Shown here one piece after another: positions 23,432 through 64,000 of a DNA stretch of 64,000 nt. This DNA comes from Hydractinia symbiolongicarpus (taxonomy: Eukaryota > Cnidaria > Hydrozoa > Anthoathecata > Hydractiniidae). A model generated the notes under the pieces. The model made no database searches. It saw only the letters and a list, made by a program, of their open reading frames with translations, and was not told where the DNA came from. A program made the position numbers and the translations under genes. The stretch's first letter is position 1. The number at the start of each line of letters is the position of its first letter. The stretch lies in assembly GCF_029227915.1 (NCBI RefSeq), contig NC_079884.1, forward strand, positions 1,116,001 through 1,180,000, given 5' to 3'.

Positions 23432-25395
23432 CATAATGCTGACATCAACATAATAATTTTCTGTCACCTTAATAGGGCATTTCAGGCCTAAATTGATCCA
23501 AAAGATTTGTCATTCTATAATCAATATTAGCACAAGCAACAATTTGCATTGCATTTCGTGTGTACGAAGCACAATTATAAAATCGTGTTGACAACGAGTA
23601 TTAATATACAAAGAAAAATAAGGCGTTTATATTAAGTAGACGTTCTGCTAGTAATCTGAAATCTTTTAGCCTGTTAATAGTCGAACTGGATTTTCTTCGG
23701 ATCAGCAATAATGCATTCTGCTTATTGATAATTTGAGATCACAATTGTTTTCATGCAAAATCTTTGAAGTTTAATAGCTTTTAGGTATTTTGGGTATTTA
23801 GATGGTGCAAGTGCAGAAGAAGCAAAATTTGGGATGGTGGTAGCAGGCTCGATGATGGTACAAGTTCAGGAAAAATAAAGCTTGGGGTAGTGGTAACAGC
23901 CTCAATGAAGGTGCATGTGAAATTCGTGGCGTACTAAATTTTTAACATTAAATTTTATATCTAGTTTATTTTTTGTATATATATTATATTTAGTTTTTAG
24001 GATGAATTGTATTTTACAGGTGAAATTGGAAGATATTTATATACTATTCATATACCATCTAGTATTGTCCTTTCTTAAAACGTTTCTCAGTTATTTTGCT
24101 TTTAAAAAATTAACATAGTGTCCAACTTCCCCGATGTTTCGGTCACGGCTAAAAACTCATTGTTCTGAATGTATACCAACTAATCATTTATGAGACTCTT
24201 ATTTTTATGTTCAAACGTGAAAAAGAATCTGATACTAAGAGTGTTTAAAACCGTGTTTCGGAAGATGTAACGATACCCTTCTAGTTTTTTTAGTCTAGAA
24301 TTAATCACTAACAGAGGACCTAAACTATGGAACAAATTCCTTGCCATGACGTAACACTTGACCGATTTAAACGGAAGCTAAAACATAAACTAATGATTAA
24401 TCTCGAGGTCAAAAAATGAATGAATTTTCGCGAATCAGTTATGTCGAGATATTTCGCGAACCATTTTAAGGTCTTTCCGAATAATTAGTATGAATGAATA
24501 ATAAATTTAGTATTTTTTTGCAATTTGAAGTTATTTCGCCTTTTATTTGAACTTTCGCTCACAAAAAATAAAATTCTTCGAGAAAATCTAGAGAAGAAAA
24601 AGCAACATGTTTTCTTCAAAAAGTTTCGCGAAACTAATTTTAACTTTTGAAGGTGTAGAGGCTTGGTGACAGACTACATAGTCTTTTCCTTGCTCCTCTC
24701 ACTTTAGCTAACCCGCAATCACACCTTTCTGGATTCTATGATTTTAGAATAGCTATAGATTTGTATTTATTTTCAACGGGGAAATAACATGAAAAGTAAT
24801 TATGTATTTTCAATTCGTTTGTGTATTGTACGAATGCACATCACAGAAATTCTCAGCATTTACTTCCAGGTTTCGTGTAAAATCTAAGAAGCCCTGGGTT
24901 TTTTTTGGCAGAAAAGGTAAACAGTCAGGCTTCATTTGCCTAAAAATCTTTCGCAATATTATTCTTGCGCTTTAAACTGCAATAATAAAGCTCTGGTATT
25001 TCCATTCTGTAAACAAGTGAGAAATAAATGGAAAAGGTTTTATTTTTGGTAAAGTTTTCTGAGAAACTTATTCAAACGGTTTCGGACAGGCAGGGAAAAC
25101 CCTGGGGACGATACTGTCCTCGACCCTTAGCCCTAAAAATCGTGTCCATTTTACACGGACTTATCAGTACACGTGGAAAAATTGTAACAAAAACAACGAT
25201 CAGAAAATGAAGGAGAAGTATAGCTAAACATTTCAGCAAGTAAGTATATGTTAACTATATATACCAGTGTCTACAGTACCTCTTTGTTGTAATAAAATAT
25301 TGCAATAAAGTGCATGGCCATTTTCTTTCTTCAGTCCTAGCTATGACCGCGCTATGACATAAAAGGGATGCATGAAACTGTTCCATTGAATTGAG
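23432..25395. other. Intergenic downstream of GCC1
   Basis: No gene seen. It contains the LINE remnant listed at 24130-24400. The frame at 25028-25210 has no recognisable domain. Confidence 0.5.
24130..24400 (+). pseudogene. Degraded non-LTR retrotransposon RT C-terminal fragment
   Basis: Readable pieces are LIVLNVYQLIIYETLIFMFK and, after frame breaks, LITNRGPKLWNKFL. These match in order the C-terminal part of animal non-LTR reverse transcriptases, where a VYQL..YE...FM block is followed by an S.RGPKLWN block. It is heavily decayed, with no flanking structure seen. Confidence 0.55.
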
Positions 25396-25703
25396 CCGGG
25401 CCATAGTTTAGTGGTTATCACTCTCGTACTCTGTGCGGGAGACTAGGTTTCGATTCCCGGGGGTAAACCCAAGCCATGTGAGGAAAACTGGGTAGATGGC
25501 ACACTATGTGGGTCATTGGATGTGCCCAGGGAGTTGTCTGGCAGAGCGCTGATTCTAATTAAGTTTGTGTAGGTCAGAGTGAGCATTAAATACTCCAGGA
25601 CTCCCCATGAAAGTCATGGGCCCCTCCTGGAAATAATAGACAGGGTATATCCCTTGATATTTGTGAGGCTAGCCATGTAAAATATGCACATCTATCTATC
25701 TAG
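25396..25703 (+). mobile_element. tRNA-derived SINE, near full length
   Basis: The head is tRNA-like. TAGTTTAGTGGTTATCAC at about 25404 fits an RNA polymerase III A box, and GGTTTCGATTCCCGG at about 25447 fits a B box, followed by GGGTAAACCC. The body contains CAGGGAGTTGTCTGGCAGAG, GAGCATTAAATACTCCAGGA and AATAATAGACAGGGTATATC. The 3' end is a short ATCTATCTATCTA tail. Two truncated copies are at 8279-8455 and 13880-14075, all in plus orientation. Confidence 0.85.
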
Positions 25704-26092: not shown

Positions 26093-26454
26093 AGTGACTG
26101 TCCGGTGAAAAATTATTTTAAAATATTATTTGTAATTTAAAATTATGACATAGAAAATACCTCTCTTTTTTGATATTATTCACTTAATCACATATATAAA
26201 CAAACCTTTTTATCGTAGATGTTGTTAAAGCATGGCTTCGTCTCGTTGCTGCAAATGCGCGCAAAACGGCCTGGGTTAAAAATTTAATATGCGTAATTAT
26301 GCATGTGACGTAGAACAGTGGTGAAAAACAGACTATGTAGCGAAAGTGTGTAGCGTTTTCAGTACAAAATATGAACCCCCCTAGAAGTTAACTTATTTAA
26401 AAAAACTTTTAATTTTAAACTCTTTTCTACAAATTATGAAATACGATTATTAAT

Positions 26455-26924
26455 ATGTCTTCGTCGAACAAAAATTTCACGGTATTAGGATTTCAGTATG
26501 AACCAGAAAGATCAGATTCCGAAATAGCTTCACAGCCTAGGCGGGTTTTTAATGATGCTTTTGATGATCAGGCAGACTTCGATCCTCAGCAAAATCCTAG
26601 ATTGTGTAAGCCTGTTACTGATTGGTGTCGTTGTGGTACATGTGAGAGGATGCCGACAGAGAAAGAGTGTGTTTGCTGTGTTGAAATCGATGCCATAAAA
26701 TACTTCAATCTTAATGGTAGCGATTTATTTTTATATATTTCCAAAAATAATAAGGGGAGTTTATATTTCCAGACTTTTTTCTAACTTCATGATAATTATT
26801 TTAAGATCAGGAATGCATCACACAGCATCCACATTTTAACTACATCGTGTTGTTGAAAGATGTGTTATGGACAGCGTTAGTCGCGCTATATGACCGGGAA
26901 AGTCGCGGTTTATCAAAAACATAA
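26455..26924 (+). CDS. Transposon-borne protein with P2X7 C-terminal (ballast) zinc-binding signature
   Basis: Exons are 26455-26716 and 26806-26924, joined in phase 1 (AATG|gtagcg ... ttaag|ATCAG). The total is 381 nt: 126 residues plus TAA. After an acidic N-terminus (about 55 residues with DSE, DDQ, DPQ) comes WCRCGTCERMPTEKECVCC (about residues 59-77), then E, and DQECITQHPHF after the intron, then a helix-like end VLWTALVALYD. The W-C-x-C-G-x-C ... P-T-x-x-E-C-x-C-C-x-E ... C-I-T-x-H-P pattern is that of the P2X7 receptor intracellular ballast domain, also found in many stand-alone invertebrate proteins. Known ballast domains continue with a further Cys-containing half (YRQ...IPSC...IR..FP), which is absent here; the frame stops inside the transposase tail. 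No membrane segment. It is intact in a copy whose transposase is broken. Role unknown; nucleic-acid or zinc binding would be a guess. Confidence 0.8.
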
Positions 26925-29765
26925 AATTTGCAATGTTTTATATACCTGTTCTCTGTTGATGTTGTGGTTGTGATCTAAAATAGCGAGTTGGGTACCAGCG
27001 AGCATCTTTTCCATTTTAAAAAAGGTTGACTTTGGCAAGTACCTAATTTTCAGTGAATGAAAAACTTCCAAGAGGGTAGTGTTGATTTGCTCCGTAAGCT
27101 TTTCAAGATCTTTTACAAGGCAAGGCTGTGTCACAATTTTAACCAATTTGTTGTGAGCTTCAGAACCCATCACAAGCCACTTTTTTCTTTCTGTCTCTTC
27201 CTCATTTAATCTTGGATGGTCGCAAGCTTTGTATGTCTTGTTGTGGGTAAAGGTATGTCTGTTGACAGAGTGGTGAATTATCGACGTAAATATTTCAACT
27301 AACTCTTTTCCACTACCATTACAATTATGGATTGACCATTACAGGTGGTTGACCACTGCAGGTGCCCAGCTTGCAAGTATGTTTAAGTCTATGAAGAAAT
27401 AATTTAATAAAATCCGCACATTGAGATCTTAATCACTCTACAACCAAAGTAACATACCTTTCTTTTTTGAAGCCTTTATTAACTTTTTAACGAGTCCCTT
27501 TCCAATGTGCCAAGGATCGAACTGATGAATAATTTTTGTAAATCTTGGGTCGGTCCTCATTAGCTTCTTTATGGAGGGATGCCTATCAGTGGAAGTCACA
27601 CGTATTGGAAGTTCCATGTCTTCTTGAAGTTCTTGGATACATCTGATAAAGCCTTCTTTTTTCATTGCTTGTGAGCTGGTTACCTCCTAAATGTAAGAAG
27701 AAGTTAAAAGCCGATGAGATAGAAATATATATTTAGGAACACTCAAACGTAAACAAATTTACCTTCACGTGTACTATGCTGAAATTTAATATTTTGTTTG
27801 TCTGGCAGTCCATCGCCGATACGGTACTGTAGGTGGCGTTGTGACCAGGTGTATCACATTGACCGTCAACGGCAAGTTCTAGCTGCCGATTTTCATTTGT
27901 AATTTCACGTGACAGTATCTGTTTTTCTTTTCGCCAAGCATGATCTACCTCTGGGTAAACAAAGTTGCCACGATGCTCGTAGTACATGGTTTTGGAAATG
28001 AATTGCAAGTTTAACATGTTTGCAAATTTTAGCATTTTGTTAAATGTTATTCCAGCTAGTTCAATAGCAGCGGTTAAGTGTAAATTACCAGCTCCTTTGG
28101 TGCAATTTAGTTTCGGTTGACCAGACCAGTTGTAGTTACAACCTAAAATTCAACAATTAAATTAGAACCTAGGAGGGAGCTACAGGCTATTTTTCAGAAT
28201 CGAACAATAAATGTTTTACTTAACCTTTTACACACTGTATCTTGTACGTTAGCTGACTGCCAGTATTCTTAACTTCGCTGATGCTTCCACTGTCTATGAT
28301 GGAACCACACTTTATGCAATACTTAATCAGCTCTTTGATACATGTTTCGTACACCAAGTAAGTTTTTTGCTTGCATGGCTCCATGTTTCGATGTTCAATA
28401 CGTTCTTGTTCTTGTTCTTCGTCTTCTACTTCATCCATCTCTTGACTAATTGAATAATTAGGGTCACTTTTATCAGCCCTGAAATAAGGAATATGCAAAA
28501 AATAGATTCATAAATACGACTTTAAGGAAGTGGTTGGAAATTTATTTTTGTTTTGTTACCTCTCAAGAGATTTGACTAGCCATTCATCATCCTCACTCTC
28601 ATTGTCGCCATCGGAAATTACGTCCTCGTCCAAATCGTGTCCCTCGTGTGAAAATTCAGAAGTTGGTGGTTCAATTAAATTCGACAATCCCAGCATTTCC
28701 AATGTGTTGCTTATATTACCTGAAGTATTAAATGAAGAAAAACGATATAAACAGTTCCTTCATTAATAATTTTTTCATTGTAAATTCGTGCACGTATAAG
28801 AAAATATTTACCTTTGTGTAGGATATTGAATGTACTGTTCAGAGCTGCTGCTGCGCTTTGTAGGTTCACGTCATCCAAATCGGAATTAAATGAGGAATCA
28901 GTACAATTTGAATCTGAAAACATATACATTCTTAAAAATTACAAAATAATTTGCCACTTCGGTTAAGCATTAAAATGAAATAAAGTCGAAAGCCATACCG
29001 TTATCTGTGTCCGTTTCATTTTCAGTTTGACAAGAAGCATGTACAACAGCTACTTGGGTTTGCGTTTGCGCATCTGCTACAGAACACGACGTTTGTGTAC
29101 ATGTACTTCGTACTGACGTATCTTTATACTGGGTTGCACTCGTTTGTGTTTTTGGTATGGCCTGTATTCCAATTGATAATTTGGATTCAACTTCAAATTC
29201 AACTTCATTATCGATTAAACATAATTGCTCAGAATCTTCAACCAAGGCTGACTTCACCAACTAATAACGATCGAACGAAGTAATAAAAAGGAATGGGAAC
29301 GAAAATGATATACTCGAGAAATGTTAAGAACATTCAAGGCTTTGTCAATACCAATAGCAAAATACGAGGAAATTAAGAATAATTTTTAAGATTAACATTC
29401 TTATAAAAAAAACGGATTTGCTTACGTCTTTAGATTGACTTCGTTTGGCTCGCGATGTGGAGGATGTACGTTCCTTAGGGGCAGTCTTTCTTATGACAAA
29501 AAATTGTCGGCACAGAATTTGGAATCAACCGCCGTTTGCAAGGACGATCTTTATAAAATAATTCATTCTGAAGTTTCCAGCTTGGGTCAAAGCAGGTTTC
29601 TTCAAAACGGTCAGAGCATAGAAATACTTTAGCCGGCAGCTTTGTTCTGTTAATTGCGGCAATCCAGGATTTGCTAACTCCAGGATTCTTAGGCATTAGG
29701 AAGAAGCTTTTATCTTTGTTTGACTTAATGTTGTTTTTACAACCGTACGCCGAACAGTAGGCCAT
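26913..29765 (-). pseudogene. THAP-domain Kolobok-like transposase, 8 exons, inactivated
   Basis: Exons (minus): 29765-29426, 29260-28999, 28913-28812, 28719-28560, 28478-28225, 28142-27763, 27686-27458, 27388-26913. They total 2,203 nt, one base more than 734 codons. The N-terminus is a THAP domain (C4, C9, W34, C50, then SVPTIF), but the fourth zinc ligand, normally His in CSDHF, is Arg53 (codon at 29609-29607). A six-T run on the minus strand (29503-29498) shifts the frame; five would keep it open into KERTSSTSRAKRSQSKD. The middle is acidic. The catalytic part has KTMYYEHRGNFVYP, LAVDGQCDTPGHNATYST (first Asp), TSTDRHPSIKKL (second Asp), IHQFDPWHIGKGL and LLEVFHSLKIRYLPK (candidate acidic third residue), then TQLAILDHN. 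In exon 8 a TAA (27341-27339) replaces the first Trp of the family's usual NHLWWS block. These lesions make it a pseudogene in this copy. Confidence 0.85.
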
Positions 29766-30334
29766 ACTAGCAGCAAGTTTTTCGACCTTTCTCTGTTCAG
29801 AGTTGTTTCACAAAAAGAAACAAAAATGTTATTTAGTTTGCTTTCGAGGGGAAATTGCGTGATGTCGCGCTGAAGCGGCCTCTTTTACATTTTGATCTTT
29901 AAATTTTATCTTCAGCGAAGCGCCTTTAGCGAATAATAACAGAACCTGTGAAATCTGATAAATTATTTATAACACATTTCCGAATATATGCTACACGGGG
30001 GTATTAACTGACTTAAAAAATAATAAACGAAAATAAAATAAGTCAATAAGATTTTTTGTTCCGGTCTATCCTTTAATGGGCTAGCGCGTTATGTTTTGAT
30101 TTTCTCACCATTGTGCTACGTCAGGGGAAACATGTGTGTTTAGCCTCTCATTCATGCTGAATTATTCAAACAAAATGGCGATCCAAAGGTGATGCTTCAC
30201 AAGGGAATTGAAAAAAAGAAAACAACTTACATAAGCGTATTAATATATTATGTTTTAAAAGATGCAGATATTCTTTAGTAATAAGTACATATTAGTTGAT
30301 ATAATAAAACTTATTTTTTTACCGGACAGTCCCT

Positions 30335-35786: not shown

Positions 35787-38700
35787 ATGAAATGGAAGGA
35801 ACGTGTTTTTCTCCTACTTATTTTATGCGCTATCACAATACTTGTGTATTACCGAGGCACACTGAAATCCAAAAGACTACCCTTAACCAAATCAGAGAAT
35901 TTAGACACATTTAAAGAAAAGCGCAACACATTTGCACTAGAATTAGATGATGACCATAACAATTGGCTGTCCATGCATCCTTGGGATGTTTGGCAAGAAA
36001 TGGTTACAGGCAGAGAAATAACAGATCGTTCTGAAAAGTTTGTACATATGATATTGAAGGCTATGTCAGAAAGTAAGATTTTAAGTGCAGATGTTGGTTA
36101 TAAGGGTACACAATTAAAAGCACGTTTATATTTGGATGGACCCGAAAAACAGGTTGTTGTGTTCAAACCAAAAAGGTAACATTTTTCTCATGCATTGCAA
36201 ACATAACAATCCTGTAATCATAACTCTGTAATCAGTATATTTTTTAAAAATATTTAAAAGCTATATCAAAAAGTGTGTGCCAAACTATTTTAGGTGTACT
36301 TTTAGGTGGCATTTTTGCTTTGGGCACATGTCTCTGAATAATTTTAATTATGTAATATAAACTTCAACGGCTTTTTGTTATGTTTTTATAGATACGAGCG
36401 TGACAAGGTATTAGGTGGAACACCCTATGAAGGCTATGATAGACATAATGCCGAAATTGCTGCTTTTCACTTGGATAGGTTGATATTTCGTATAAATTTT
36501 TTATATATATGTTTTGTTAACAATGTTAATTGTTCTATATCAGTTTTAAAATCTACAATCTCGGTCAAAATATGCTGAAACAAGACAGCTAATTGATATT
36601 TCGTATAAATTTTTTATATATATGTTTTGTTAACAATGTTAATTGTTCTATATCAGTTTTAAAATCTACAATCTCGGTCAAAATATGCTGAAACAAGACA
36701 GCTAATTTGAAAGATCGCCACCACAGGTGATTGTGTTGGCTATTTCCACATTAGATTCACACATTTTGATCTTGTCAAAGTTTACTTGTCATGTTCAGAC
36801 ATTTAGGATCAATGATTATTTGCTAGAGTCTATACTCTTAAAATGTGCTAAGTGTTGCTGACGTCAGCATGGCCTTTTTCTGCGAATTGTGAGGCCTTCG
36901 TTCGCCCGACATGGATTATTTTGTGATGGAAGGCATGTTAAAGAGTACAACTACCAAATTTTGAACGTTGTCTCCCAGGCCAACATGTGCTTAAAAGTAG
37001 CGACTTTGCAGCCCGTTGCTGCAGATCAATGACCGTTTAACGCTTTTGTCAATGTTTGAAAAATGACGAAAAAAATGTCCTTACTTTTGTAAATGAAGAA
37101 ATCTTTTTTTTTTTTTTGATTTTATATGCAATTTCTTTTATAATGATTTTATAAACTACGTCACGAAATTGTTGTCAGAAGACTTGACGTTGGGTTGCTC
37201 CGGCTGCCAAGTGAATTGTTTTAAAATTGGGATCATTTTCAAATGACTAATTTATTGCGGCTGTAAAGTAGGTGTAATCAAGTTTATATAGTCAGTAAGA
37301 TTTGTTATGTGTAAATTTTTAGACTCCTTGGTTTTAACAGAGCACCCCCTGCAGCTGGTAGAATCATTAATTTAAACACAGAAGTATTACCTGTGTGCAA
37401 AAATAAATTGCGCAAAACATTTTTTACTGGTGAGATTTACATTGTATATTGTGCTTGTAAAATAACATGTTATTGTTTGTATGCTCATTTTAGTTCATTT
37501 TGTGTTTTAGATGGTTCGAATATTTGTTTCTATGGTGTATGCATGTATTGCAGAAAAGAGGAGCCAGCTTGTGGGAAGGGTGAAAAAATGGAGGGCTCTC
37601 TAACACTTTGGTTGCCAGCAAAATGGAAAGTTGCAAAGATGAGACATCCTTGGCAGAGAACATATAGAGACAAAAAGGCTAGGTTCGTTTTATTTGCTTG
37701 AAACTTATTTTACAGGCTTGTTGCAATAAGTCCGCCATTTTTTAGCTAAGTATTGGAAATTGAAAACAATAACATTTTACATTTCTTTAGATGGGAGGTT
37801 GACATGAATTACTGTGACAGTGTTGTGCGGAAAGTACCATACAATGAAGGTCCTCGTCTGCTAGATATCATGGATACTTCTATATTTGACTTTTTAATCG
37901 GTATGTACCATTTCGTGCTAACGTTTTATCGTTCTTTATTTGCGAGTTTTGATTTAGGAGGTAACATTTTAGGTAATGCTGACCGGCACCATTATGAATA
38001 TCTTCAGAAAGATGGAAATCATGGAATGTTGTTACATATCGACAATGGAAAAAGGTAAATATTGATTTAGAACGGATAACATGATGAATGCAGTAAATGA
38101 AATTCTAATACTATAGAATTTCTGAAATGTAGATGAGGTGGCTTAATTTACCAGCGTGGCACTTAATCGAACCCGTCCTAAATAAAGGTGTTTCACATGA
38201 GAAAAGGGCCTAAGTGGGATTTTATTGATATAGTCTTAGGCCTCGAAATGTTACGGTAACAATCGTTTCGTTATCGTTCCAGAAGGTGTTATCAGGTAAC
38301 AGCAGTCATGACAAACAATCATTACCGGAAACTAAAGCACATAACCTATTTCGTCCCATGCGATTGTTTTGAAAGTAATAATTTAGCCACAGAAAGCACC
38401 TTATATCCTCTCTATAGTAATAGCCGTATTTTGTCTGTCTGTCTAATTTAAAGACGGACGACCCCAAAGATTTTTCAATGGGTTAATGATTAGTCTATAA
38501 ATATAATATACCTACTATATCTTTAAAAAAACACGTCATGAATTGTCGTCAAACAACTTTAATGGTTGCCGTGGTTTGCTCTAGAAATAATTACACACTA
38601 CACACAAGGCGCACACAATTTACAACCATTTAAAAGTACTTTGTGTTCTTTTACTTGGCACCAACACGTGAATAAACCAGTTTCCAGGCTTACTGAGTTG

Positions 38701-41432: not shown

Positions 41433-62817
<21,385 letters not shown>

Positions 62818-62824: not shown

Positions 62825-64000
62825 AATATTTATATTATCTAAATAAAGCATAGTGTAGAATGTAATTAATGAATGATAGCAACATCTCAACAAAGGTTCT
62901 TTGATTATTAGGAAAAAAATATAATGCAGAATAACCATAAATTGATGTTTTTCTTATGCAATATAAAATGTATATTTTAGTCAAGCGGTACTTAATTTAA
63001 TTAAAGGAGATTTGTCATTGGATAAATCAAAAAAAGTTTTGTCATTGGATAAATCAAAAAAAAGTTTTGTCATTGGATAAATCAAAAAAAAGTTTTGTCA
63101 TTGGATAAATCAAAAAAAAGTTTTGTCATTGGATAAATCAAAAAAAAAGTTTTGTCATTGGATAAATCAAAAAAAGTTTTGTCATTGGATAAACCAAAAA
63201 AAAGTTTTGTCATTGGATAAATCAAAAACAAGTTTTGTCATTGGTTAAATCAAAAAAAAGTTTTGTCATTGGTTAAATCAAAAACAGTTTTGTCATTGGA
63301 TAAATCAAATCAAATTTGTCAATTCAACACAACATGAAATTTTCTGCACCAAAATATCTAAATTGATCATCATCATCATTTGCATCAAAATTAACAGTGT
63401 TTTTCTGTCTAGGAAGGCAAGTCCAACAGAAACTTAAAATGGCTGATTTTTACTAAACAAATTATTCCTTTTTCTAACCAATATCAGTAAAAAAAAAAGA
63501 TAAAAAAATAAAATCAAATATTTATTTTATCCAGGAGGTTCTGTTTTTGCTAATTCCTGCCTTTTTATTAGCCAGATCAGATTTTTTATCATCTGTGAAC
63601 AACCTTTTTCTTGCATATGGCTATCGGAAAATATAGAAAGAGACTCTTTTCTCATTTTCTTGATTCATTCGTTCTCATAAAAATACATGAATTCCTAATA
63701 TTTGATAAATCTTGTATAGTTTGATATCAAGTTACTTCTAGCACAACCTCTTATTTATAAACAGAAAAATACATAAAATCCTTCCTAATAAACCACTAGG
63801 AATAATCAGTGGATAATTATAGTAAGTGGATAAGTATAATATATTTGTAATATTTAAGGTCAAAATCTTCTTTATCCATCAATTATCTTTAAAATGATAC
63901 ATCGTTAAAATTAATACTATACAAAAATAAAAACAACACTAACTTATCATAAATCCTTTACATATCTCATACAGTTTTCTAATGTTTCATCTTTCTGCCA
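62825..64000. other. Upstream region of TOP3B, no gene seen
   Basis: AT-rich, with the minisatellite at 62999-63312; no coding frame recognised. Confidence 0.5.
62999..63312. repeat. ~27-bp minisatellite, about 11 units, 0.2 kb upstream of the TOP3B start
   Basis: The unit TTTTGTCATTGGATAAATCA followed by a run of five to eight A and G repeats from 63012 to about 63310. Units differ mainly in A-run length and a GGATAA/GGTTAA change. Confidence 0.95.

Follow-up and report, generated by a model that had tools for sequence, protein, structure and literature searches.

Does a gene with the signature of the P2X7 ballast domain, lying beside a transposase gene in the hydroid Hydractinia symbiolongicarpus, belong to a transposon, and is it an intact gene in the copy at hand? 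The question arises from a 64,000-nucleotide stretch of contig NC_079884.1 (hereafter the window, G000:C10:1116001-1180000 in the 481-Mb assembly that we searched). An initial annotation of the window had read here a Kolobok-type element with an intact, two-exon ballast gene, and had treated the pairing of such a gene with a transposase as undescribed. The features that we recognize are collected in Table 1. On the evidence below, the window copy is very probably a dead, internally deleted Kolobok of the kind that bears a second gene, KolX (the Kol0 group), an assignment made from its ends, motifs and gene content.

Table 1. Features of the element and its target site, in positions of the window.
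Feature	Positions	Strand	Remark
Kolobok element, whole	26093-30334		ends and TTAA
Left target-site copy, TTAA	26089..26092	.	directly outside left end
Left terminal inverted repeat, first 20 bases	26093..26112	+	begins 5'-AG; 18/20 against right end
KolX exon 1	26455..26716	+	frame open; first two cysteine clusters begin here
KolX exon 2, shortened by deletion	26806..26910	+	frame continues to a stop shortly past 26910
Deletion junction	26910..26911	.	816 alignment columns of L009-L012 missing
Transposase exon 8	26946..27388	-	in-frame stop; holds third acidic residue (E)
Transposase exon 7	27458..27686	-	holds second D and D-x-x-H motif
Transposase exon 6	27763..28142	-	holds first D
Transposase exon 5	28225..28478	-	nine-exon model
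Transposase exon 4	28560..28719	-	nine-exon model
Transposase exon 3	28812..28913	-	nine-exon model
Transposase exon 2	28999..29260	-	nine-exon model
Transposase exon 1, THAP domain, frameshifted	29426..29765	-	4 bases longer than in all four full copies
Right terminal inverted repeat	30315..30334	-	element ends CT-3'
Right target-site copy, TTAA	30335..30338	.	directly outside right end

The reading as a Kolobok-type element is borne out by (i) the TTAA target site, (ii) the terminal dinucleotides, and (iii) the D-x-x-H motif of the transposase. The inverted repeats and the TTAA duplications are present as first annotated, and by their coordinates both genes lie between the repeats. Within the window, the terminal 14-mer AGKGACTGTCCGGT has matches with zero mismatches only at 26093-26106 (+) and 30321-30334 (-). 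Allowing up to three mismatches gives 3 matches in the window against 2.78 in shuffles; because this relaxed count is about that of the shuffles, the weight rests on the exact, oppositely placed pair. The termini, AG on the left and CT on the right, agree with the rule of 5'-RR and YY-3' given for Kolobok in the main text of Kojima and Bao 2022 (PMC9587614). KolobokP differs in having long terminal direct repeats (about 450 or 660 bp); between 25900 and 30600 none of this kind was found, with repeats of at most 25 nt in the 20 of 24 repeat families listed. The TTAA target is shared with piggyBac. The element differs from piggyBac in its Kolobok-like AG...CT ends, in a THAP/DDE transposase with a D-x-x-H motif, and, in full copies, in a KolX with cysteine clusters.

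We used the element as a query against the genome and obtained at least 95 matched rows. Twenty loci (L009-L028) were fetched, one of which (L028) was the window copy again and 11 others of which had two ends; in the remaining eight (L016, L021-L027) at least one end lay outside the stretch or was not found as the exact pattern, and these were not counted for their ends. TTAA flanks both sides in 10 of the 12 two-ended copies (the window copy, L009-L015 and L017-L020) and one side only in L009 and L017. Four copies are full: L009 (5065 bp), L010 (5063 bp), L011 (5030 bp) and L012 (5074 bp). They are 98.5-99.2% alike pairwise, and the retained part of the window copy resembles them at 98.4-99.0%. 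All four hold both genes inside the same ends, and the KolX of L009, as a query, gave at least 224 exon-level matches in the genome. The initial annotation had named two outcomes that would speak against it, namely that other copies lack the ballast gene, or that the gene is a single host gene into which TIR-like sequence fell by chance. Neither came out. The copy number, the shared ends and the target-site duplications leave the single host gene with next to no probability, and the ballast gene recurs in the full copies in the same facing layout as in the window.

Is this layout general? We merged the best 150 of the at least 224 KolX rows into 116 loci, and the best 150 of 155 rows for transposase exon 8 into 144 loci. 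A transposase match lies within 5 kb at 40 of the 116 KolX loci; in 39 of these the two genes face each other, in one they are on the same strand, and in none do they point apart. The gaps of the 39 facing pairs range from 16 to 624 bases. Random placement, drawn 200 times, put a mean of 0.475 loci within 5 kb and never more than 5. Several pairs of loci have identical scores (C1:8.93 Mb with C1:11.10 Mb, and C7:22.1 Mb with C7:32.7 Mb), so the loci are not all independent and some are duplicated stretches. No exon-8 match was found within 5 kb at the other 76 KolX loci, which may be deleted copies of the sort seen among the fetched loci, neighbors of transposases too divergent for the query, or independent genes. 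Seen from the other gene, a KolX match is near only 39 of the 144 transposase loci, a count in which divergent KolX genes could be missed.

We note a group of distant transposases (about 41% identity) at C7:8580133-8580564, C13:14990294-14990725 and similar rows, which are single-piece open frames of 642-738 aa. A KolX match faces each of them at about 437 bases.

The ballast gene of the window copy is not intact, contrary to the initial annotation. An alignment with the full copies L009-L012 shows in the window copy an 816-column deletion that takes the end of KolX exon 2, all of KolX exon 3 and transposase exon 9. The KolX part of this loss includes the third cysteine cluster and the residues that correspond to R546 and R578. 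The WCRCGTCERMPTEKECVCC...CITQHPHF signature of the P2X7 C-terminal domain, named in the annotation, is present; it is read from 26455-26716 joined to 26806 onward. The resulting frame of 126 aa is open up to the deletion and stops soon after. For exon 1 alone, the match to Pfam P2RX7_C covers positions 65-100 of the 192 in the profile and reaches 19.5 bits, short of the 23.5-bit cut-off, and the second half of the domain is gone. With the truncated protein as query, no P2X7 chain was found among solved structures, the best row being an unrelated protein at E 0.12. The description as a two-exon gene likewise falls, since full copies have three KolX exons (203 codons) and the window copy is without the end of exon 2 and exon 3.

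The transposase of the window copy is also broken, by the frameshift in exon 1, the in-frame stop in exon 8 and the loss of exon 9. The deletion is shared by a second copy. L014 (G000:C12:11455893-11459546) agrees with the window copy at 299 of 300 bases spanning the junction and carries one further deletion; by comparison of short flanks, it has its own TTAA pair and different flanking letters. Among the at least 95 rows matched, the window copy and this copy alone run unbroken across the junction. Because the same junction sits at a second TTAA site, the broken form has probably moved; the deletion probably arose once, the deleted form then being carried by the proteins of other copies. One could instead take the window copy for a working two-gene element whose normal product is a C-terminally truncated ballast protein, given that its KolX frame is open to the deletion and then soon closed, and that the truncated form exists in two places. 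We consider this very improbable, as all four full copies keep the missing stretch and the window transposase carries three lesions. On the preferred reading of a dead, deleted copy, the window element, without the facing ends of both genes, could move in its present form only by way of proteins from other copies.

No full copy among the four combines an open KolX, as found in L009 and L010, with an open transposase, as found only in L011. KolX is broken in L011 and L012, the transposases of L009 and L012 are frameshifted, and that of L010 has four in-frame stops. The L011 transposase is open over all that was read, 784 residues, in a model whose end is taken from that of L010.

The nine-exon transposase model was read from the copies; exons 1-8 are in the window, and exon 9 falls inside the deleted stretch. 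The initial annotation of a minus-strand THAP/DDE-type transposase stands. In the window, a THAP domain is found at 29475-29807 (-) with E 3.5e-13, and Pfam names the catalytic part only weakly, as Mutator-like (0.00083 and 0.006, below cut-off); for the joined L011 protein, Pfam gave no name for the catalytic part. Across 18 aligned sequences, the L011 transposase and 17 relatives, no change is seen at D464, D532, D555-x-x-H558 or E682. Judging from their order and the motif, D464, D532 and E682 are the putative catalytic residues. C597, H614, H619, C630 and H632 are invariant or nearly so in the same 18 sequences; they are at most candidates for the zinc finger that the main text of PMC9587614 places, in all Kolobok but the Kolobok1 lineage, after the motif and before the last E. 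The best named relative among 31 matches is P0008 of the hydrozoan Clytia hemisphaerica, at 51% identity.

We then consider what the second gene encodes when it is complete. The KolX of L009 matches Pfam P2RX7_C at 74 bits (E 2e-20, positions 66-192) and the C-terminus of structurally known P2X7 chains, including rat P2X7 (6u9v, E 3.6e-9). It has all three of the cysteine clusters that the main text of PMC7016195 (2020, on the origin of the P2X7 C-terminal region) describes for the ballast domain: W-C-x-C-x2-C; C-V-C-C with E-C-I-T; and I-P-A-C...I-R. By these matches it is the same domain as in P2X7 and zebrafish Nanor; those are host genes, P2X7 with a channel part, whereas KolX is a gene of the element. 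A structure prediction for the related protein P0002 (see below), made from a five-row alignment, was set aside at a mean pLDDT of 48.6, and the identity of the domain rests on sequence. Five GDP contacts of rat P2X7 are named in the main text of PMC7016195. In the alignment with 6u9v, KolX keeps R546 and R578, and has Y for H547, V for R574 and S for K583. A guanine-nucleotide role of KolX is weakened because three of the five contacts differ; the same paper reports that only R546 and R578 are kept among invertebrate domains and deems binding still possible. With respect to the Kol0 group, defined by KolX beside the transposase, the full copies have both genes by sequence, and the window copy has a domain cut in half.

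The two genes also face each other in a second family (L022, L023), about 70% alike in DNA, although the KolX match in L023 is limited to exon 1. TTAA-flanked inverted ends were not found for these two loci in the stretches searched. Comparison of the two families gives pN/pS values of 0.24 and 0.28 (KolX exon 1), 0.18 (KolX exon 3), and 0.13 and 0.12 (transposase exon 8). Constraint on both genes is only roughly measured by these ratios because pS, at 0.70-0.81, is near saturation.

Some of these genes have already been annotated as hydroid proteins. P0001, an annotated protein of H. symbiolongicarpus, is read at 100% identity over exons in L022. P0002, annotated as 'P2X purinoceptor 7-like', corresponds to positions 925-1343 of L016 (G000:C1:30202279-30206400), at 100% over exons 2 and 3; L016 is a copy of the element family of the window, and its transposase exons face P0002. 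At least two of the hydroid's annotated stand-alone ballast proteins are products of transposon genes. The suggestion in the initial annotation that stand-alone ballast proteins of invertebrates are transposon proteins is borne out for these two proteins of this hydroid; for the wider claim there are, beside the literature, matches to proteins from Oculina and Branchiostoma, taken at the protein level.

The pairing of a ballast gene with a transposase, which the initial annotation had supposed to be undescribed, was published in 2022. Kojima and Bao (PMC9587614) describe in the main text a Kol0 group, found in vertebrates, annelids, cnidarians and sponges, that encodes, besides the transposase, a protein to which they gave the name KolX. 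It resembles human P2X7 over residues 476-595 and has a ballast fold and seven conserved cysteines, and they propose that the P2X7 tail and Nanor acquired the ballast domain from such elements. The central idea of our finding, including an origin of the domain from elements, is therefore in print. Our element resembles Kol0 elements with KolX (type element Kolobok-1_XT) in its TTAA target, its 5'-RR...YY-3' ends, its D-x-x-H motif and a second gene with a ballast domain; what distinguishes the present case is that the family is that of a hydroid and that the window copy has an internal deletion. By word start, none of the terms THAP, Hydra and convergent is present in the main text of PMC9587614, so that text holds no statement on layout or THAP with which to compare. 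According to the main text of PMC7016195, the domain is distributed across the animals, for the most part as short proteins, and a species has 'one or a few (<10)' ballast genes; by word start, 'transpos' and 'Kolobok' are absent from it. What is new here is a hydroid family with counts of copies and of layout, the recognition of two annotated genes as element genes, and the finding that the window copy is broken. The hydroid family is a well-populated example of the published idea, and ballast-type sequences, at 116 or more loci with fragments and dead copies included, can far outnumber the fewer than 10 genes per species of PMC7016195.

In full-length elements of the family, the gene of a THAP-DDE transposase is paired with a facing gene for KolX, a small protein rich in cysteines that carries the P2X7 ballast domain. 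THAP domains generally bind DNA, and that of this transposase would do the same. Following the rule of the superfamily, the transposase would excise the element at its inverted repeats and insert it at TTAA. We lean slightly toward KolX being a partner of the transposase, which might act, for example, in complex assembly or end recognition. Alternatively, KolX may be a passenger or modifier, acting for instance on host silencing, and dispensable for the transposase in moving the element. This reading is possible, if doubtful. It fits the scarcity of KolX matches near the transposase loci examined (39 of 144), and the fact that Kolobok lineages carry several unrelated accessory proteins while some encode the transposase alone, as stated in the main text of PMC9587614. 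There, KolobokP, D, E and H belong to the same superfamily and share the target site, and each has its own accessory protein, a nuclease or helicase, unlike KolX. Against a passenger speak the constraint on KolX between families (pN/pS 0.18-0.28) and the facing layout at 39 loci, neither of which cleanly separates the two roles. A stronger form of the partner reading would have KolX obligatory for the Kol0 transposase and kept by selection on the element, with the ballast fold first evolved for transposition and the ballast of P2X7 still carrying a binding activity from it; we regard this as rather unlikely. We found no function stated for KolX in PMC9587614, and our literature searches found no other paper on it.

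Elsewhere in the window, about 400 bases to the left of the element, positions 25395-25680 look by eye like a tRNA-derived SINE, with promoter-box-like letters and short ATCT repeats at the end; ARAGORN, for tRNAs, and Rfam, at gathering thresholds, returned nothing for the window, this stretch included. Tandem repeats are present at 56639-57111 (a six-base array of TGATGG, 78.8 copies, 98% matches) and at 63011-63309 (a 28-bp unit, 10.8 copies, 94% matches). At 36480-36707, a 113-bp unit occurs twice, a duplication that is recent because its two units are without mismatch.
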